Source: Clostridiales bacterium Firm_05
GTDB lineage: Bacteria > Bacillota > Clostridia > Oscillospirales > Ruminococcaceae
NCBI GenBank assembly: GCA_001604035.1
Contig: LVAK01000075.1
Span: 1-35,568, forward strand
DNA length: 35,568 bases
Direction: 5' to 3'
The notes below the pieces were generated by a model, which did not search any database, had not been told where the DNA came from, and saw only the letters and a program-made list of their open reading frames with translations. The translations under genes and the position numbers were made by a program. Positions 16,278 to 25,709 of this stretch are shown piece after piece (the stretch's first letter is position 1; the number at the start of each line of letters is the position of its first letter).

Positions 16278-17021
16278 TTATATTTGATCGATAACTCCGA
16301 TAAGGATACCTCTTGCATCGGTAAATTCGTAGGTGCAGGTTGAGAGTAGCAGGAGATGAAGATCATCCCGTTCTTTAAGCTCATCGGAAGTGAAAGCTGC
16401 TGTATACTGTGCGTCCGAGAAGATATAGTCGATATATTCCTCTTTCTCGGACTTGCTCAGAAACACCGCATGATAAGCAGGAGCAGTGTTCGTTGTATTC
16501 ATATATGCGAAGAAACGGACGCTGTGTTCGCCGTCCTTCATAGTCAGCGTACCTGACGGATGAGACTGAAGGAAAGCTTTATCCTTGAATAAAGCGATAT
16601 CAGCAAACATCCGCTGCTGTGACATATGATGACCGTACACGATAGAATTGAAGCCGCTGAAATCATTCTCGCAGCGATAGTCGAGGAACGGACAGCCCAG
16701 CTCATTGTTAAGCTCTCCGTCAAAGCCGTGATGGAGGTAGAAATCGTTATCATCAGCCTGACAGATCGGGTAATCGATATGGGTACCGTCTATTGTTATC
16801 CATCCGACAACAGCCGGATTGACTTCTTCCGCTTTTTTCAGTGGATCGCTGCCGTCGGGATCATGTTCCGGTCTGACTTGACTGAACAGCTCCATCTGCT
16901 CACTGTTTGCATCATCGACAGCCTTCTCGGGAAGGATATCATCGTGATAGTACCTGTAGCCGCAGTATGCTCCGGCACATATCAAAATGATAATGATAAC
17001 AAATATCACCTTGCTCTTCAT
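16278..17021 (-). CDS. srtB: Class B sortase
   Basis: This 247-residue enzyme is a membrane-anchored transpeptidase (transmembrane segment 4-20) that cleaves sorting signals and links the protein to the envelope or to another subunit. The class B fold is shown by VVGWITIDGTHIDYPI, the YGHHM motif with the catalytic His131, the LLLSTCTYEF motif with Cys229, and Arg237 in TDARGILIG. Its ATG overlaps the stop of the preceding gene in ATGA form (17018-17021). That gene encodes a protein with a PPKTG sorting signal, which makes it the obvious substrate. Similarity to the sortase working with BsaA in Clostridium perfringens biofilm loci is from general knowledge. Confidence 0.92.
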   Translation of the reverse strand: MKSKVIFVIIIILICAGAYCGYRYYHDDILPEKAVDDANSEQMELFSQVRPEHDPDGSDPLKKAEEVNPAVVGWITIDGTHIDYPICQADDNDFYLHHGFDGELNNELGCPFLDYRCENDFSGFNSIVYGHHMSQQRMFADIALFKDKAFLQSHPSGTLTMKDGEHSVRFFAYMNTTNTAPAYHAVFLSKSEKEEYIDYIFSDAQYTAAFTSDELKERDDLHLLLLSTCTYEFTDARGILIGVIDQI

Positions 17022-17803
17022 GGCATTTCATCTTGCGGCTCATGCTTTTGTTTTTCACGCTTTTTGAAGAACAAAAGCAGTATCATTCCGCCGGTCATTA
17101 TTGCAAGGGCAGCAATTGCGTTTATCCAGAATTTATTACTTGTGGGGAAAAGTCCTGTTTTCGGAGGAATATATTCCTCATCGACAGCCGCATAGAATAT
17201 CCATTTGAATTCTATCTCGCCCTCCACATGGCCGGACTGAGCATTGCCGACCAGAACGTGTTCGCCGTTGATATCCACGAGCCTGTGACCGTTGTCCACT
17301 CCCACAAGAACGTTCAGGTCGTTCCACACTACTGAGCATTTCAGCGTATGGGAATCGCCGGGGGCATAAAGTCCGCAGTCAAGCACATTTTCAGTCAGGT
17401 CGATATAACCGTCATCGGGCTTGCCGGTAACTTTCCCCTTATAGACCTCCTGGCCGTCCAGCCAGAATGTGCAGTCACAGCCTTCTTCAAGGTCAATCTC
17501 GCCCTGCTTGAAGAGCGGTTCAACGTAGAAGTAGATGTGGTAGGACTTATCGTCACGCAGGTTCATGAGCTGCACATCTTTGGTGTAGGTCACGCCGTAG
17601 CTCATGTTTTCAACATGAAAGAAGTATTCGCCGGTATCTGAGCTGACAACATTGCCGTCAGAATCCATTGCGGTCAGCTTCTCCGGAAGTCCCTTCACCG
17701 CACCTTCTGGTAAAGCAACCTCCGCAAAAGCTGTCATCGATGTAACAGAATTAAGTAGGAGGAGGCTTGCGCTGAGTGCGGTAAACATTCGTTTAATACT
17801 CAT
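17018..17803 (-). CDS. PPKTG-anchored surface protein, probable sortase B substrate
   Basis: The 261-residue precursor has a signal peptide (cleavage after TAFA, residue 27), a beta-rich extracellular domain of about 180 residues with Cys110, 111, 143 and 156, and a complete sorting signal. That signal is PPKTG at 213-217, a hydrophobic segment at about 227-246 and the basic tail KKREKQKHEP. PPKTG-type signals are used by clostridial class B sortases, and the gene overlaps a sortase B gene by four bases. It could be the base anchor of the fibre or a fibre subunit. AAAGGAGGGAGG lies upstream of its ATG. The extracellular domain itself is not a family I recognise. Confidence 0.85.
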   Translation of the reverse strand: MSIKRMFTALSASLLLLNSVTSMTAFAEVALPEGAVKGLPEKLTAMDSDGNVVSSDTGEYFFHVENMSYGVTYTKDVQLMNLRDDKSYHIYFYVEPLFKQGEIDLEEGCDCTFWLDGQEVYKGKVTGKPDDGYIDLTENVLDCGLYAPGDSHTLKCSVVWNDLNVLVGVDNGHRLVDINGEHVLVGNAQSGHVEGEIEFKWIFYAAVDEEYIPPKTGLFPTSNKFWINAIAALAIMTGGMILLLFFKKREKQKHEPQDEMP

Positions 17804-17849
17804 TGCCAGCCTCCCTCCTTTAATTATGTTAATGATTTGATGTCATGTA

Positions 17850-19190
17850 TCATGTCCAGCTTACATCAGTACCATCATATGCTGCTGTAGCGCCCCATGA
17901 AGAATCATTTACGCCTGTGACCATGCTTTCGTTGGTCTTAGCCTCGTCAGGTGTTACCTGAACGCTGTCGAGAACAACAGTCAGATCATAAACGAGCTCC
18001 TTATAAGCGTCCTGTGTTACAGCCTTGTTAAGCGTAACACTGTCGACCAGCTTTTCAGTAGTAGCACCGGAAGCAAGGATCTTGTTGTAGAAGAAATATC
18101 CGATGTCGTTTGTGCCGTCGATCTTGTCGCTTGTAGCAGCCTTGTAAGTCCAGTTTTCTTTCCAGTCGTCAGCAAGGTTGATGTCGATGATTATATCATC
18201 GAGAGCCTTGTCAGCGGATGCATCATCGTCGCCCACATAAGTCAGACGGATGATCTTGGCATCGGACTTATTCGCAGCAGCTGCTGTGGTATCGTCCTTC
18301 ATCCATGCGATGCTGAATGCAGGAGTTGAACCGCTGTTTGAGATAGTAACAGCCTTTGTTGCAGCGAGCTTAACTGCCTCACCAACGGAAGCTGTAACCA
18401 CACCGTTAGCGTCTTCTGTTACTGTAACAGAACCGTCCGGCAGATAAACTGTGCCCGGCTGAGTCTCAAGAGCGTAGAATTTACCGTGGTCTGCATCATA
18501 GTAGTAACCGGAATACTTTGTAGCATTTCCGTCTGTCTCATAAATTGTACGCTGGAATATGTACACGCCGCTTCCGTACTTTTCTGCGTAGGTTTTTGTA
18601 GGATCCGACACAGTTTTTGTTACAGCGGGATCAAACTGGCCTGAGCCGGAGTAGTCCGGAGTAGCAGAATTCACGCCGTCATCACCGGAGCGGACATTCC
18701 AAGCATCAGACGGAGATACGGCCTGTCCGGCTGCAATGACGAGAGTACCGCCTGCCTGAAGCAGAGTAACTTCGTTTGCATTGTTGCTGACAGCATTGCC
18801 GCCTTCAGTGGTATTAGCTGTTGAAGCCTGTTTTTTAAGCTCAACGAGATCTGTGTTTGAAGCATCAAAAGCGGCAGGTGCAACACCTGTACCCTTTACC
18901 TTCATAGCTGCGTCGTTCAACAGTCCAAGGCGGACGAAAGCATCTACATTACCTGTATTAACAGCAGAAACATCCTTATTGATCTCCTGGCCCGGTGTCC
19001 AGTCTTCTGTAGGAGTGAAATCCTCGGTGATAGCTACGCCGTAGTCACTGGATGCAGAAAGGCGGTTAGTTACCTCATCCTTGCTGGTGAACCACGCAAA
19101 AGTTGATCCTCCGATCATTACTGCAGCGATGATCAGTGAAGCGATCAGCACTCGTTTTTCCTTTGAAGATCTTTCCTTCTTATTTGCCAT
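17850..19190 (-). CDS. TasA/BsaA-like SipW-dependent biofilm matrix protein (major subunit candidate)
   Basis: The 446-residue protein starts MANKKERSSKEKRVLIASLI and has a hydrophobic signal (residues 14-33) leading to GSTFAWFTSKDEVTNRL. This is the classic SipW substrate pattern in which a TFAWFTS-like sequence precedes the mature chain. EDFTPTEDWTPGQEINKDVSAVNTGNVDAFVRLGL (split here as EDFTP..DWTPGQ, KDVSAVNTGNVDA, FVRLGL) matches the family's conserved beta strands. The C-terminal half carries NLADDWKENWTYK and VYDLTVVLDSVQ. It follows a SipW-like peptidase by 10 bp with TAGGAGG and is the most regular member of the three TasA-like proteins. Polymerisation into fibres is established for TasA and for BsaA in C. 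perfringens, and is inferred here. Confidence 0.85.
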   Translation of the reverse strand: MANKKERSSKEKRVLIASLIIAAVMIGGSTFAWFTSKDEVTNRLSASSDYGVAITEDFTPTEDWTPGQEINKDVSAVNTGNVDAFVRLGLLNDAAMKVKGTGVAPAAFDASNTDLVELKKQASTANTTEGGNAVSNNANEVTLLQAGGTLVIAAGQAVSPSDAWNVRSGDDGVNSATPDYSGSGQFDPAVTKTVSDPTKTYAEKYGSGVYIFQRTIYETDGNATKYSGYYYDADHGKFYALETQPGTVYLPDGSVTVTEDANGVVTASVGEAVKLAATKAVTISNSGSTPAFSIAWMKDDTTAAAANKSDAKIIRLTYVGDDDASADKALDDIIIDINLADDWKENWTYKAATSDKIDGTNDIGYFFYNKILASGATTEKLVDSVTLNKAVTQDAYKELVYDLTVVLDSVQVTPDEAKTNESMVTGVNDSSWGATAAYDGTDVSWT

Positions 19191-19200
19191 AATAAACCTC

Positions 19201-19821
19201 CTAATCGTTTTTCTTTTCTTGCTCGGACTCTACATCCGGAGCTCCTTCCGCATCAGCGCTCCTGAGCTCAAAGTACCGCCGCATAAGTTCGAGGAAAACA
19301 AACAGCAGTACGATCATAGGCACGATGAAGTACCATCTGAGCTGAACAAAACGAAGAACGTAGCCGAATTTCGGCAGATGAAACTGTACAGTGCCGATAA
19401 CTCTGTCCTCGTCTATCACGAAAGGATCTTCTGAATCGTTGGCATCACCCTTTGTCCGAAAGCAGGTAACACCGGTGCCTTTATAGTCGGGGAGCTTTTC
19501 AACTACTCTGTGCGTCAGGTAAGCATCGCCTCCTGATGACGGGTTGAATGTGATAATGTCCCCTTTCTCGATTTTATCGGCTTTCTTGACCTTTACAAAG
19601 ACCATATCACCGCTTTTGAACTCCGGCGCCATTGAATCCGTCAGAACAGTATAATAGCGAAAGCCGAACAGCGATTTGCTTGAACTCTTGTCGGTTACAA
19701 AGAAAGCCGCTGCAATAACGATTACCAAAGCCAGCAGATAAATCAGGACTGTCCGCACAATCGAGAAAATGCGGTAACCCTTGCCCTGGACTGCAATGTG
19801 CTCTTTACTTGCTGTACTCAC
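19201..19821 (-). CDS. sipW: SipW-like signal peptidase I (ER-type, Ser/His), first copy
   Basis: This 206-residue protein has a transmembrane segment at about 20-42, the catalytic serine in TVLTDSMAPEF (Ser63) and the catalytic histidine in YLTHRVVE (His104). It also has a TKGDANDSEDP box and a second membrane segment near 155-175. It should cleave the signal region of the TasA-like protein encoded 10 bp downstream. An in-frame ATG exists at 19869, but it has no ribosome site. A strong AGGAGGAG lies inside that extension and points to the GTG at 19821 (10-12 nt spacing), which I chose as the start. It is the first gene after the fibre promoter and its long leader. Confidence 0.85.
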   Translation of the reverse strand: MSTASKEHIAVQGKGYRIFSIVRTVLIYLLALVIVIAAAFFVTDKSSSKSLFGFRYYTVLTDSMAPEFKSGDMVFVKVKKADKIEKGDIITFNPSSGGDAYLTHRVVEKLPDYKGTGVTCFRTKGDANDSEDPFVIDEDRVIGTVQFHLPKFGYVLRFVQLRWYFIVPMIVLLFVFLELMRRYFELRSADAEGAPDVESEQEKKND

Positions 19822-19933
19822 TCTTAGGCAACTCCTCCTCCATCCTTTTTTGCCTGAGTGGTTTATCACTCATATATCATATCAGCCAAAAACTGTTATG
19901 AACCTGTTAAGCTAATGCTGTGATAAGGCGGCA

Positions 19934-20140: not shown

Positions 20141-20169
20141 ATTATACCATTTTTTTGCTGTTGTGTCAA
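20141..20169 (-). promoter_or_regulatory. Consensus promoter of the surface-fibre operon
   Basis: TTGACA (20169-20164), exactly 17 bp, TATAAT (20146-20141): a perfect sigma-A promoter on the minus strand. It directs transcription toward the first SipW gene 320 bp away. Such a strong core promoter with a long leader suggests that expression is restrained afterwards, by a repressor or in the leader. Confidence 0.85.
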
Positions 20170-20372: not shown

Positions 20373-21863
20373 TTAATCTCTTTGGAAAAGATCTCTTGTA
20401 TAGACCTTTTCTGATACGTCGTCAAGAATGGAGTCGTAGCGGTTTGCAACGATGCATCCGCACATTTTCTTGAACTTCTTCAGGTCATTGACGATGCGTG
20501 AGCCAAAGAAGGTGCTTCCGTTTTCGAGTGTCGGCTCATATATGACGATAGTTGCGCCCTTGGCCTTGATTCGCTTCATTACGCCCTGGATAGAGGACTG
20601 GCGGAAGTTGTCGCTGTTCGACTTCATAGTCAGGCGGTATATACCGACAACGACCTGCTTTTCCATGCCGCTGTCAAACTGATTATTGTTTGCATAGTTA
20701 TAGCAGCCTGCCATTTCAAGCACACGGTCGGCAATGAAGTCCTTTCTTGTTCTGTTGGACTCGACGATAGCGGTCATCATGTTCTGCGGAACGTCCTGAT
20801 AGTTAGCAAGGAGCTGTTTGGTATCCTTTGGCAGGCAGTATCCGCCGTAGCCGAAAGAGGGGTTGTTGTAGTAGTCGCCGACACGGGGATCAAGGCATAC
20901 GCCCTTGATTATGCTGGCGGTATTAAGATCCTTTACCTCTGCATATGTGTCCAGCTCATTGAAGTAGCTGACACGGAGGGCAAGATATGTGTTTACGAAG
21001 AGCTTTGTGGCCTCAGCTTCTGTAGTGGCCATGAACAGTATGGGGATATCTGTCTTGACAGCTCCCTGCTGAAGAAGTGCAGCGAAGGTCTTTGCAGCGT
21101 CAGTGTTTTTCTCGTCAGAACCGACGATTATGCGGCTGGGGTAGAGGTTATCGTAGAGCGCTTTGGATTCACGGAGGAACTCAGGGCTGAAAATGATGTT
21201 GTCCATGTCCAGCTTTTCACGCACCTGTGCGGTGTAACCGACAGGGATAGTTGACTTGATAACGATAGTTGGCTTATTCTTCTTTTTAGCAGTTACTTTT
21301 TTAATGAGCTCAAGCACTGATTCAACAGCAGAGCAGTCAAAGAAATTGGTCTTAGGATCGTAGTTCGTAGGAGCTGCAACGATAATGAAGTCAGCGTCCT
21401 TGTATGCGGACTCGCCGTCAGTTGTAGCCTTGAGAGAAAGCTTTCGTTCTTCATGCTCTGCAAGATATTTCTCGATGTAGTCATCCTGTATAGGAGAGAT
21501 CCAGTTGTTGAGCTTCTCGACCTTTTCGGGAACGATGTCAACAGCGGTCACATCGTTGTGCTGTGAGAGAAGAACTGCCAGGGACAGTCCGACATAGCCT
21601 GTACCGGCTACAGCGATCTTCTTGCGCTCGACTGAGGCTGTCTCAGCTTCATCGTCTTCAAACAGGTCTTTGCAGTCAAAATCAAGTACCTGGGACAGTG
21701 CAAGGAGCTGATCAACGGAAGGGCTGAAGTTTTGCTGTTCCAGTCTGGTGAACATGGTGCGGCTGATACCGGTCTTTTCAGCAAGGGCGTTCTGGGAGAG
21801 CCCCAGAGCCTTTCTTCTGCTGATGACAGTCTCTGCTAAAAGTTTAAGAGATAGATGTTTCAT
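20373..21863 (-). CDS. UDP-glucose 6-dehydrogenase-type enzyme fused to an N-terminal XRE helix-turn-helix
   Basis: Residues about 10-66 are a Cro/C1-type HTH ([20 protein letters not shown], then [21 protein letters not shown]). After a short acidic linker (67-80) comes a full-length nucleotide-sugar dehydrogenase of about 415 residues. It has a GTGYVG dinucleotide loop (87-92), SPEFLRE at 226-232, and [12 protein letters not shown] with the catalytic Cys343. The enzyme part should oxidise UDP-glucose (or a related UDP-sugar) with NAD to the uronate, feeding capsule or polysaccharide synthesis; the exact sugar is not certain. The ordinary enzyme has no HTH. AGGAGG precedes the ATG by 6 nt. 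A perfect promoter and a palindrome lie just upstream, so autoregulation by the HTH is likely. Confidence 0.88.
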
Positions 21864-21885
21864 ATTGACCCTCCTGATATATTTA

Positions 21886-21902
21886 TGTCACAAATTGTGA
21901 CA
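21886..21902. promoter_or_regulatory. Operator-like palindrome, TGTCA-N7-TGACA, copy 1
   Basis: TGTCACAAATTGTGACA is a perfect 8-1-8 palindrome. It lies in the leader of the HTH-dehydrogenase gene, roughly 20 to 36 bases after the predicted transcription start and before the ribosome site. It is a natural binding site for a dimeric XRE-type regulator, and the nearest candidate is the HTH of the gene itself. Confidence 0.65.
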
Positions 21903-21928
21903 ATTACAGTTTCATATGCGATATTTAC

Positions 21929-21957
21929 ATTATACCTTAGCAATAGCGCAATGTCAA
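21929..21957 (-). promoter_or_regulatory. Consensus promoter of the HTH-dehydrogenase gene
   Basis: TTGACA (21957-21952), exactly 17 bp, TATAAT (21934-21929) on the minus strand. Transcription should start near 21922, about 60 nt before the ATG. The two TGTCA-N7-TGACA palindromes lie on either side of it. Confidence 0.85.
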
Positions 21958-22016
21958 TAACTTTGCCGCAAATAGTTGCAGATTGGTGAAAATGACGGGG
22001 CATACAAGGAAGAGAT

Positions 22017-22033
22017 TGTCATTGATCATGACA
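22017..22033. promoter_or_regulatory. Operator-like palindrome, TGTCA-N7-TGACA, copy 2
   Basis: TGTCATTGATCATGACA repeats the TGTCA and TGACA half-sites of the site at 21886 with the same 7-bp spacing, although the centre differs. It lies about 100 bp upstream of the dehydrogenase transcription start and 126 bp before the -35 box of the divergent signalling operon. It could serve either promoter. The gap 21864-22220 contains these two sites and the two promoters, and no gene I can support. Confidence 0.55.
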
Positions 22034-22220: not shown

Positions 22221-23819
22221 ATGCTTCATATGAGCAGGCTTGAGAGAAATTACTCCATCGCTTTTATAATAGCATTTTTTTTAATCGCTCTGGCAAATAT
22301 CCTCATGCATTTCTCTCCATACATTACCGGTTTGTCATCGATACTCTACTGCTTTTTTATCATTGCGTGGGCATCAACTGTTGCCTGGCGCATCGTTCAT
22401 AAAAAAATAAGGCGGAATATCATTGCTGTAGCAGTGTCTCTGTTAGTATTGTTCGTGATACGTTTTTGCAGATATGATCTGTTTATCAATTCTCCTTTGA
22501 TCTGCCGGTATCTTTGGTATTTCTACTATGTCCCGTACATAACGATGCCGATGATGAGTTTGAGTGCAGCTTATTATGTGGGGAAAGGCGAGAATGCCGG
22601 AATGTCGCCTGTTCTGAAAGCTGAATGGGGCATCTCAGGGTTCCTTATGCTTGGCGCACTTACAAATGACCTTCACCACTTTGTACTGAGTTTAGTGAAT
22701 GAGAATGATATAAACACCCGTGCTGTGTACAATTGGCTATACTATGTGATATTGATATGGTCGCTTGCTATGACAATAAACTCGTATATCATCCTCATAA
22801 AACGGTGCAGATTGTCACAGTGCCGGAAATACTGGTATATACCCATTGTTTTCTCAGCTATCGGTATCTTCTTTATGGTAGTTTTCTTTGCCTGCGGAGA
22901 GTCACCGACCGTATCAGGTGTCAAGTTATATAACATTCAGGAAGCATACGTCGTTCTTTTCATAGGACTTTGGGAGGGCTGCATAAAAATAGGGCTTATC
23001 CCCTCCAACACGGGATACAATGCCCTTTTTGAACGTTCCGGCATCAATGCTGTGCTGAAAAATGCAGGCGGTGAGGAAATCTGCCGCTCAAGCGAATACT
23101 CTGATACGGCTGACAAAGAAGATTACAGAATCAAGACATTCACAATAAAAGGCGGAAGTGTGATATGGAGCGAAAACGTCTCCGCTATCAACCGGATAAA
23201 CGGCGCAATAGAAGAGGCTACAGAACAGATTGAGGAGGAAAATGTCCTCATTGATGAGGAAAACCGTGTTGCTGCCGAAAAAGCAAGATATGAAACTCAG
23301 AACAGGCTGTACAATAATATTACCCTGCATACTTATCCTCAGCTTCTGGAAATAGATGAGGCGCTGAATGAGAATGATGAATTCGATCATAGGATGAAGA
23401 TCGGTCTGCTCCTCGGAACATATGTCAAGCGCTGCTCCAATCTTATGCTGATCGCAGACAACCGCCCTGATATCTCAACGGATGAACTGTACCTTTCCAT
23501 AAATGAGAGCTTTGAGTTTATGGGATTTCTCGGCATCGACTGTGAGCTGGTAAAAGGCGGTACGAAATTGCTGCCGTCAGATCAGGTAATAGCAGCATAT
23601 GATGTATTTGAAGCTGTTATCGAGTCATCTCTTGATAATGTAAGTGCCTTCTCGGTAACAATAATGCCCGCGGAAAATGTAATTATGTCTGTTGAATCTG
23701 ATGCTGTGAACTTAGCCGCTGACATCACAGTCCATTCTGCTGATCTGAAACTTACTTCATATGTAGAGGATGACATCCGGCACTTCACTCTTTCCATAGG
23801 GGGTGAAGACAATGAGTAG
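22221..23819 (+). CDS. Multi-pass membrane sensor, kinase-like but without a recognisable H-box
   Basis: The 532-residue protein has about seven hydrophobic segments in residues 10-260, arranged like a 7TM sensor domain. A small PAS-like stretch (265-320) and a charged coiled coil (about 322-362) follow. Where a histidine kinase would carry its H-box and ATP site, the sequence reads NRLYNNITLHTYPQLLEIDEAL and later SLDNVSAFSVTIMPAENVIMSVES. There is no H-D box and no DxGxG or GLxxxR box. It therefore looks like a catalytically dead kinase relative or a dedicated partner of the true kinase in the next gene, which overlaps it by 8 bp. A role as the sensory half of a heteromeric kinase is inference. 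Confidence 0.65.
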   Translation: MLHMSRLERNYSIAFIIAFFLIALANILMHFSPYITGLSSILYCFFIIAWASTVAWRIVHKKIRRNIIAVAVSLLVLFVIRFCRYDLFINSPLICRYLWYFYYVPYITMPMMSLSAAYYVGKGENAGMSPVLKAEWGISGFLMLGALTNDLHHFVLSLVNENDINTRAVYNWLYYVILIWSLAMTINSYIILIKRCRLSQCRKYWYIPIVFSAIGIFFMVVFFACGESPTVSGVKLYNIQEAYVVLFIGLWEGCIKIGLIPSNTGYNALFERSGINAVLKNAGGEEICRSSEYSDTADKEDYRIKTFTIKGGSVIWSENVSAINRINGAIEEATEQIEEENVLIDEENRVAAEKARYETQNRLYNNITLHTYPQLLEIDEALNENDEFDHRMKIGLLLGTYVKRCSNLMLIADNRPDISTDELYLSINESFEFMGFLGIDCELVKGGTKLLPSDQVIAAYDVFEAVIESSLDNVSAFSVTIMPAENVIMSVESDAVNLAADITVHSADLKLTSYVEDDIRHFTLSIGGEDNE

Positions 23820-25092
23820 TTTCATATCCCTTGGTGAAAGCCAGAGGAGTGTACTTATTCTATGGATGTTTCTGGTCGAGTGTGTATTCTTTCTTGATAT
23901 AATTCTGCATCTTGTCCTGGACAAAAAGCTGTATCGGATAATACTCTCATTATCGGAAACACTGCTCACGTTAATACTTATCCAGTCCTTTTTGTATCAG
24001 ATGAAAATGAAAAGCGGCTTTTTGCTTGAGCTTCCTGCGGCAGTTGTATTTCTGATAGATACTGTGCTGACCGCAGCTGCTGTTTATGAGTTTGTCGGCT
24101 CCATTAAGAAGAGATATCAAAACATCGACCTTATGTCCATAAAGGAGTGTATGGATCAGCTTCCTGTGGGGATATGCTTCTACTGGAACGGCGGACTGAC
24201 AAAGCTGGTGAACCTGAAAATGGACAGCATAGCACGAAAGCTTACAGGCAGCAATATCTCCGATGCAGAGAGCTTCTGGGAGAAAATTTCCAGCGGTGAG
24301 ACTCCATATAGTATAAAAGGCGGAGACGCTCCTGTTGTGTGTTTTGAGGACGGTTCGGCGTTCAGCTTTTCACTCCGCAAGACAGAACTTGACAATGAGC
24401 CCATAAATGAGCTTATGGCCTGCGACATAACAGAGGAATACCGCCTTACCGCTGAATTGAAAGAAAAACAAAAGAAGGCAGGCAGCATAAACGCACGTTT
24501 AAAGGCTCTAAACTCCACGATACAGTACATTATTATGGACAGGGAGACCTTGCAGATAAAAATACAGATCCATGACAGCTTCGGTAAAACTCTGCTCATG
24601 ACAAAACAGTACCTTATCTCGCCTGATAAAGTTGACAAACAGGAAATGCTTTTGCTCTGGCACAGAAATATTTCCCTGCTGAAAAACAAGGAGAGTGAGA
24701 AATGGCAGCATCCATACTTTGTCACCATGCAGCACGCAAAAAGTCTTGGTATAAATGTTGAACTGAACGGTGAGCTGCCTGTGAGCGATAAGCTGATCCC
24801 TATTGTGGATTCAGCTATAACCGTACACATTACTAATGTGCTCCGTCACGCCGAGGGTGATACCGCATATATCTCATCAGAGAAAATTCCGGAGGGATAC
24901 ATCCTTAGGTTCACCAATAACGGCAGACGTCCCGATGCGGATGCGAAAGAGAGCGGCGGTCTTGTAAATCTCAGGAAGAGTATCGAGAGCATAGGCGGAT
25001 CAATACAGATAAATTTCACACCGCAGTTTGAGATGGTACTGAAGATGCCTGAGCATATAGAGGAGGAACTGAAATGGCATATAGAATACTGA
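23812..25092 (+). CDS. Sensor histidine kinase, NarL/DegS type
   Basis: The 426-residue protein has three to four hydrophobic segments in residues 13-95 and a PAS-like domain from about 108 to 210. A coiled coil leads to the H-box QIKIQIHDSFGKTLL (His254). The ATPase domain has an N-box TNVLRHA (Asn342) and a GLVNLRKSIESIGG box (383-396). The usual aspartate of the DxG box is asparagine here (FTNNGRRPD, 367-375). I recall this variant from other kinases of this type in clostridia, so it need not abolish activity. The ATG at 23812 follows AGGGGG by 8 nt; a GTG at 23803 overlaps that ribosome site and is less likely. The stop overlaps the regulator gene by 19 bp. It should phosphorylate that regulator. 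Confidence 0.85.
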   Translation: MSSFISLGESQRSVLILWMFLVECVFFLDIILHLVLDKKLYRIILSLSETLLTLILIQSFLYQMKMKSGFLLELPAAVVFLIDTVLTAAAVYEFVGSIKKRYQNIDLMSIKECMDQLPVGICFYWNGGLTKLVNLKMDSIARKLTGSNISDAESFWEKISSGETPYSIKGGDAPVVCFEDGSAFSFSLRKTELDNEPINELMACDITEEYRLTAELKEKQKKAGSINARLKALNSTIQYIIMDRETLQIKIQIHDSFGKTLLMTKQYLISPDKVDKQEMLLLWHRNISLLKNKESEKWQHPYFVTMQHAKSLGINVELNGELPVSDKLIPIVDSAITVHITNVLRHAEGDTAYISSEKIPEGYILRFTNNGRRPDADAKESGGLVNLRKSIESIGGSIQINFTPQFEMVLKMPEHIEEELKWHIEY

Positions 25093-25709
25093 TAGCCGAT
25101 GACCAGAAAATGGTGCGGCAGATGTTTGAGGTGGCTGTGAGAGCCTCAGATAATTATGAGATAGCAGGAATGGCTGAAACTCCCGAGGAGGCTGTGGAGA
25201 TATGTCTCAGCACAAAGATAGACCTTGCTATCATGGATGTGGTGATGGGCAGCGGAAAGGACGGCCTTGACGCTGCTGAGGAGATAAAGAAGCATCGCTC
25301 CGATATAAAGATACTCCTTGTGACGTCAATGCCGGAGGTCTCATACATCGACAGGGCAAAAAAGATAGGCGTTGACAGCTTCTGGTACAAGGAGATACAG
25401 GAGCAGCCCCTGCTTGAGATAATGGACAGGACAATGGCGGGAGAATCTGTTTATCCAATGAGAGTCCCGGCAGTCAGATTCGGAAACATCGTCAGCACAG
25501 AGCTGACAGACTGCGAGATCGAGGTGCTGCGGGAACTGGTGACAGGCGCATCCAACAAGGAGATCGGCGAAAGGCTGTATATGTCTGCCAGCACAGTAAA
25601 AAGACATATCTCGGATATGCTTGTGAAAACCGGCTTCAAAAGCCGCTTACAGCTCGCTATAAGAGCAAGAAGCGGCGGCCTGGTCATAAACAACAAGGCT
25701 GATGAGTAA
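25074..25709 (+). CDS. LuxR/NarL-family response regulator
   Basis: The 211-residue regulator has a receiver domain with the acidic pair ADD (8-10), phosphoacceptor Asp55 (LAIMDVVM), a threonine/serine switch in LLVTSMPE and the conserved lysine in FWYKEI. A LuxR-type HTH follows (about 143-205: LTDCEIEVLRELVTGASNKE, then IGERLYMSASTVKRHISDML). It is the output of the signalling operon. Its ATG follows GAGGAGG and lies within the kinase gene, so translation is coupled. Targets are not shown by the sequence. The next gene downstream, the giant dockerin protein, and the divergent dehydrogenase are the nearest candidates. Confidence 0.92.
   Translation: MAYRILIADDQKMVRQMFEVAVRASDNYEIAGMAETPEEAVEICLSTKIDLAIMDVVMGSGKDGLDAAEEIKKHRSDIKILLVTSMPEVSYIDRAKKIGVDSFWYKEIQEQPLLEIMDRTMAGESVYPMRVPAVRFGNIVSTELTDCEIEVLRELVTGASNKEIGERLYMSASTVKRHISDMLVKTGFKSRLQLAIRARSGGLVINNKADE

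Follow-up and report, generated by a model that had tools for sequence, protein, structure and literature searches.

The window, i.e. the complete 35,568-nucleotide stretch of DNA that was analysed, holds on its minus strand a single 496-aa reading frame in which an XRE helix-turn-helix (HTH) is followed by a UDP-glucose-dehydrogenase-type enzyme whose active-site residues are intact (Table 1). The fusion had been proposed in a first-pass annotation of the sequence, together with a perfect promoter flanked by two 17-bp TGTCA-N7-TGACA sites. Both observations were confirmed: the two palindromes are exact, and the promoter between them matches the consensus at 12/12 positions.

Table 1 Coordinates of the fused gene, its parts and its upstream elements in the window
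Feature	Position	Strand	Basis or remark
Fused gene, XRE HTH + UDP-glucose 6-dehydrogenase-type enzyme	20373..21863	-	496 aa, stop included in coordinates
HTH domain, residues 6–67	21663..21848	-	Pfam HTH_3; predicted helices; aligns with P22 C2 repressor
Recognition helix, residues 35–42 (R35, T36, F38, L41)	21738..21761	-	Helix prediction and half-site information ranking
Linker, residues 71–80	21624..21653	-	Length varies among relatives; block pLDDT 72
UDP-glucose dehydrogenase part, residues 81–496; GxGxxG 87–92, K287, N291, C343, D347	20376..21623	-	Invariant residues, ~55% identity to 3pid/1dli
Ribosome-binding site AGGAGGG	21869..21875	-	Read from sequence; aligned in relatives
Near candidate operator TGTCA-N7-TGACA, centre +28 from predicted start	21886..21902	.	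Exact palindrome
Promoter TTGACA (21957–21952), 17 bp, TATAAT (21934–21929), 12/12	21929..21957	-	Predicted start about 21922
Far candidate operator TGTCA-N7-TGACA, centre −103 from predicted start	22017..22033	.	Exact palindrome

In Pfam, the N-terminal part matches PF01381 (HTH_3, XRE/Cro-C1 HTH) at residues 16–63 with 33.5 bits, above the gathering cut-off of 23. Three UDPG_MGDP_dh domains follow at residues 81–256, 282–371 and 407–482, each above its cut-off, and a proline dehydrogenase domain is absent (10 Pfam families matched). The protein passed the curated NCBIfam cut-off for nucleotide sugar dehydrogenases (TIGR03026, 310.6 vs. 189.8 bits) and failed that of the UDP-glucose 6-dehydrogenase equivalog (PRK15057, 537.8 vs. 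757 bits). With the latter cut-off missed, UDP-glucose is the presumable substrate as judged from relatives; the nearest solved structures of the enzyme part (3pid and 1dli, ~55% identity) are UDP-glucose dehydrogenases. The GxGxxG motif and residues K287, N291, C343 and D347, which we take to have catalytic or NAD-related roles, are unchanged in 106/106 fused proteins. Locus L036, in which the fused gene is broken into two ORFs of 171 and 304 aa, was excluded from this count. The predicted structural model (mean pLDDT 79.1, pTM 0.61) is confident for the HTH, with helices at residues 6–19, 24–31, 35–42, 50–60 and 64–67 and a block pLDDT of 84–94, and weak for the central enzyme part. In its own genome the fused gene is the sole match at E ≤ 1e-100 (all 12 candidates scored), which fits a working enzyme.

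Transcription start sites were predicted throughout as lying 7 bases after the −10 box. The same promoter scan returned six promoter-like sites in the window, compared with a shuffle mean of 3.8. The initial estimate that TGTCA-N7-TGACA should occur about once per million positions was nearly right for exact sites: the 2.97-Mb genome contains 11, against 3 for a reversed control, and two of these fall within 150 bp at the fused promoter. With ≤1 mismatch the window contains five matches (shuffle mean 1.61), and as 4 of 100 shuffles reach this number the loose motif by itself is weak evidence. The strong support for the palindromes is their recurrence in relatives, not the motif count. A wider regulon in the same genome was also considered and is unsupported, as eight of the nine remaining exact sites lie within ORFs and one is intergenic.

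A divergent three-gene set (22221–25709) encodes a NarL-type response regulator and two proteins without Pfam matches (532 and 429 aa), possibly an unusual sensor pair and its regulator. It had been suggested that the palindromes might also control this signalling operon. Among near relatives, the far site remains at a constant distance from the enzyme promoter regardless of which ORF lies upstream and in which orientation, leaving this part of the proposal unsupported. Positions 16278–19869 hold a signal-peptidase-type gene as well as a camelysin match and a sortase match, both below cut-off, perhaps a cluster for surface-fibre assembly. A second 12/12 promoter, with an extended −10 element, is located at 20169–20141 (minus strand), in the gap that separates the fused gene from the signal-peptidase-type gene. 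In the window, the fused gene lacks a close downstream partner, and the only epimerase of the genome is 32% identical. Elsewhere, a same-strand UDP-sugar-type epimerase starts ≤150 bp downstream in 31/106 fused loci; these neighbours are family matches, none of which reached an equivalog cut-off. An epimerase neighbour was rejected as a mark of the fusion, being found in 33/65 fused vs. 19/30 unfused loci spanning ≥7 kb. In six loci (L010, L012, L021, L241, L246 and L252) the next gene 3′ of the fused one is another UDP-glucose dehydrogenase-type gene that lacks the fusion, ~60% identical where measured (L010, L012 and L021).

For comparison, 107 fused and 122 unfused genes were retained after removing copies. 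Upstream sequence of 260 bp or more was available for 105 and 118 of them, respectively (2/107 and 4/122 fell short and were dropped). Matches ending before query residue 480, and copies that did not differ within their first 300 residues, were excluded from the counts. Since the genes were chosen by likeness to the fused query, with one contributing search limited to the top 80 among 592 relatives, the set is uninformative on how frequent the fusion is. With the first residue of the match as the criterion, the fusion is present in 30/125 genomes of the genus and becomes rarer in wider draws: 6/297 genomes of the family, 5/391 of the class, and 1/299 of the phylum at E ≤ 1e-150, with the own genome counted in each. 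Another family of the same class carries the fusion in about 22/115 genomes. Named carriers among the best 80 of 592 include Ruminococcus, Lachnospiraceae, Mogibacterium, Selenomonas and Streptococcus suis; as metagenome bins account for many of the titles, some labels may be wrong. On plasmids, 4 of the 15 matches listed (168 records with a match) align from residue 1, and three fused plasmid genes, from Butyrivibrio fibrisolvens, Enterococcus hirae and Enterococcus faecalis, were examined. ORFs resembling serine recombinases by eye adjoin the fused gene in L206, L011, L222 and L236; together with the plasmid copies, these neighbours hint at movement with polysaccharide islands. HTH remnants were not seen in seven unfused relatives checked by eye.

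The palindrome follows the fusion. An exact site was defined as TGT, two free but complementary bases, N7 and ACA within 260 bp upstream (TGT-xy-N7-y′x′-ACA), and was found in 60/105 fused vs. 2/118 unfused genes (Fisher 7e-23, not corrected for descent). In one of these two unfused genes, L244, the upstream spacer is also that of a divergently oriented fused gene. Allowing ≤1 mismatch, with pyrimidine–purine required on at least one arm, 89/105 fused genes carry a site (shuffle mean 4.3), unlike the unfused relatives, which stay near shuffle level (8/118, shuffle mean 3.8). The scan of homologues that the first-pass annotation had proposed as a check on its reading was thus favourable, with 16/105 fused genes lacking a site in the 260 bp upstream even at one mismatch. 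All of the nearest relatives have a site at this stringency (35/35), 20/35 have both the near and the far one, and the three plasmid genes hold two sites apiece with ≤1 mismatch in each. In a phylogeny of 193 enzyme parts, obtained after thinning, the starred branches record at least six changes of fusion state; of the 6 independent contrasts, 5.3 show site presence (≤1 mismatch) changing with the fusion and 0 show the reverse (p 0.03–0.125).

An alignment of 23 near relatives shows that the −35 and −10 boxes, the near palindrome and the ribosome site stand out from little conserved surroundings. The −10 box reads TATAAT in 23/23, and in 22/23 it is followed, ahead of the start codon, by the near site, centred at +27 to +29; in L210 and L201 a near site is recognized only at more than one mismatch. 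Where near relatives have both sites, these are 129–132 bp apart except in L221 (122 bp). Across the family, the spacing of neighbouring sites is mostly 25 to 162 bp, and a common helical phase of site pairs, which was considered, is not seen as spacings vary widely. Among 95 sites at predicted promoters scoring ≥10/12, 37 are centred at +20 to +30, 13 at +30 to +40 and 23 at −110 to −100. One clade (including L227, L242, L243, L246, L252, L254, L255 and L264; promoters 9–10 of 12) deviates in having a single site centred −59 or −60 from the predicted start, which does not fit the near/far layout and is possibly an activating one.

The half-sites vary along with the HTH. Bases 4 and 5 read C/T followed by A/G in every one of 76 exact sites, though any complementary pair was permitted. 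The HTH columns most informative on these bases are 41, 36, 38, 37 and 39 of 71, ranked on a set thinned to 41 HTHs, and all five fall within recognition helix 35–42. Taken singly, residue 36 best tracks base 4 and residue 41 base 5, with columns outside the helix (34; 54 and 68) also listed. Among genes with exact sites, T36 goes with TGTCA (9/9, all R-T-M-F), A36 with TGTTA (14/15) and S36 with TGTTG (24/31) or TGTTA (7), and five G36 genes have mixed half-sites. No exact site was present in 9/18 T36, 25/56 S36 and 9/24 A36 genes. After correction for the tree, base 4 tracked the class of residue 36 in 4–5 of 5 contrasts with none opposite (p 0.06–0.125); a smaller tree built before it pointed the same way (p 0.125–0.5), and the corresponding test of A or S at residue 36 against base 5 showed nothing. 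For both the site–fusion and the half-site–helix link, the tree-corrected statistics are weak. Two plasmid members combine A36 with TGTTA-type sites as expected, whereas the third has T36 yet TGTTA rather than TGTCA, and L38 instead of F38. A one-letter code at residue 36 was rejected as too simple in view of this protein and the mixed G36 members.

R35 is present in 96% of the fused proteins, and R17, R35, E42 and Q52 are conserved at 96–100%. An exact site occurs in 0/3 fused proteins without R35, which is little informative given that 42/102 with R35 also have none. Residue 36 aligns with Val33 of the P22 C2 chain, a residue reported to be lodged in a pocket that four thymine methyls form (PMC3865217). 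Modelling of the 933W repressor places the start of the recognition helix in contact with the guanine at operator position 2 (PMC3317979). By analogy, such a contact would suit R35 and the fixed G2 of the fused family.

In the 125 genomes of the genus, the T-type pattern TGTCAYTNNNARTGACA gave 21 sites vs. 24 for the reversed control, hence no excess. Of these, 8 lie at fused promoters, 12 within other ORFs and 1 in another spacer; the site of L288 was counted as upstream by the aligned ATG, and an upstream in-frame GTG would place it inside the ORF. It should be noted that the window's own two sites do not match TGTCAYTNNNARTGACA, which is a tighter pattern. The S-type pattern gave six sites in ten genomes, four at fused promoters and two within ORFs; the ten include G221, a family genome that is not the source of locus L221. 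Three genomes (G699, G749 and G759) each hold a T36 and an S36 copy, with C as base 4 at the T36 sites and T at the S36 sites, several of the latter having mixed arms or TGTTA. L193 (T36) and L203 (S36) share 96% of the enzyme part and 69% of the HTH, as if HTH and operator had been swapped together. Such joint exchange would inflate the covariation without selection each time.

The combined data make self-regulation of the fused gene very likely, with repression as its likely direction, and we consider it highly probable that a bifunctional enzyme represses its own gene via a private operator pair. The sequences show the fusion, its conserved active-site residues, the site pair around the promoter, the recurrence of sites with the fusion and the fit of half-site to recognition helix. 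What we infer, namely catalysis, binding to DNA, repression, action as dimers, looping and tuning by ligands, would combine as follows. The fused protein would act as a UDP-glucose 6-dehydrogenase, converting UDP-glucose into UDP-glucuronate, while its N-terminal XRE domain reads the palindrome at its own promoter. A dimer at the near operator (~+28) would block RNA polymerase just past the start, and a second dimer at the far operator (~−103) may assist, with looping as a guess, so that the enzyme would limit its own supply. The cofactor, substrate or product state of the enzyme may tune repression. Many relatives probably use this promoter to express a UDP-sugar epimerase-type gene as well.

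Self-repression had been the model of the first-pass annotation. Regulation through the palindromes is strongly supported by the sequence comparisons, as sites accompany the fusion and half-sites track the helix; the direction is less uniform, as the clade with a single site would suit an activator. Class I activators sit around −60, the very position occupied in these loci, and in at least some clades the fused protein may bind its sites as an activator of its own promoter. As a general account this is unlikely, given that almost all near relatives have a near site after the −10 box and ahead of the start codon and that the promoter is already near consensus, which is a repressor layout.

The palindromes could alternatively be bound by a separate regulator, with the fused HTH acting elsewhere or persisting as a relic, and XRE-like matches do occur outside the fusion in many genomes of the family. 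Conversely, the sites track the fusion rather than the enzyme, their half-sites vary with the fused recognition helix, base 4 differs as C/T between T36 and S36 copies even within G699, G749 and G759, and R17, R35, E42 and Q52 are retained, which renders a separate regulator very improbable. An RNA hairpin in place of the near operator would account for complementary arms within the predicted 5′ leader. It leaves the far copy, upstream of the start site, unexplained, and bases 4 and 5, always pyrimidine then purine and tracking the HTH, are unlike those of a freely covarying stem; we regard this reading as scarcely credible. Self-repression through the operator pair remains the favoured account. 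A broader extension is offered tentatively, as plausible but somewhat short of probable: scattered, partly mobile, self-repressing UDP-glucose dehydrogenases in which recognition helix and operator co-evolve as a linked cassette, two paralogues within one genome therefore self-regulate via separate operators, and repression is gated by the cofactor or UDP-sugar state.

UDP-glucuronate supplies capsules and other polysaccharides, and its formation is seemingly self-regulated here without a separate regulator gene. The family moreover supplies a set of naturally varying recognition helices along with the operators that match them, which is of use in the study of XRE specificity, and offers a direct way to ask whether the ligand state of an enzyme controls its own promoter.

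The best sequence matches of the enzyme part are the stand-alone UDP-glucose 6-dehydrogenases 3PID/3PHL from Klebsiella and 1DLI. Unlike the fused protein these lack an HTH, as their match begins at query residue 79–82. The closest natural solved HTH by sequence is that of the P22 C2 repressor (2R1J, 1ADR), with the designed protein 8TAC ranking first; E-values are only about 2e-5, the P22 C2 operator differs from the fused-family palindrome, and the HTH is attached to an enzyme here but not in P22 C2. GalR has operators upstream and downstream of the start, flanking the gal promoters a little over 110 bp apart and joined by a loop. The fused gene is similar in having candidate operators on both sides of the start, whereas GalR is a LacI-type regulator and not an enzyme, and looping is a guess for the fused family. 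In open-licence literature, searched by title and the start of the abstract, no report of an XRE–UDP-glucose dehydrogenase fusion was found. PutA, BirA and NadR are described as fused trigger enzymes (PMC8249747). Like them, the fused protein unites a metabolic enzyme and a (predicted) transcription factor in one molecule: the enzyme is intact, as judged by its motifs, and the DNA-binding domain resides in the same chain. The fused protein would be a trigger enzyme of new make-up, with DNA binding as its candidate second function. PutA, according to the same paper, binds the putA–putP spacer only (PMC8249747). PutA is controlled by proline; the fused protein differs in being a UDP-sugar dehydrogenase with a Cro/C1-type HTH and candidate operators that flank its own promoter.
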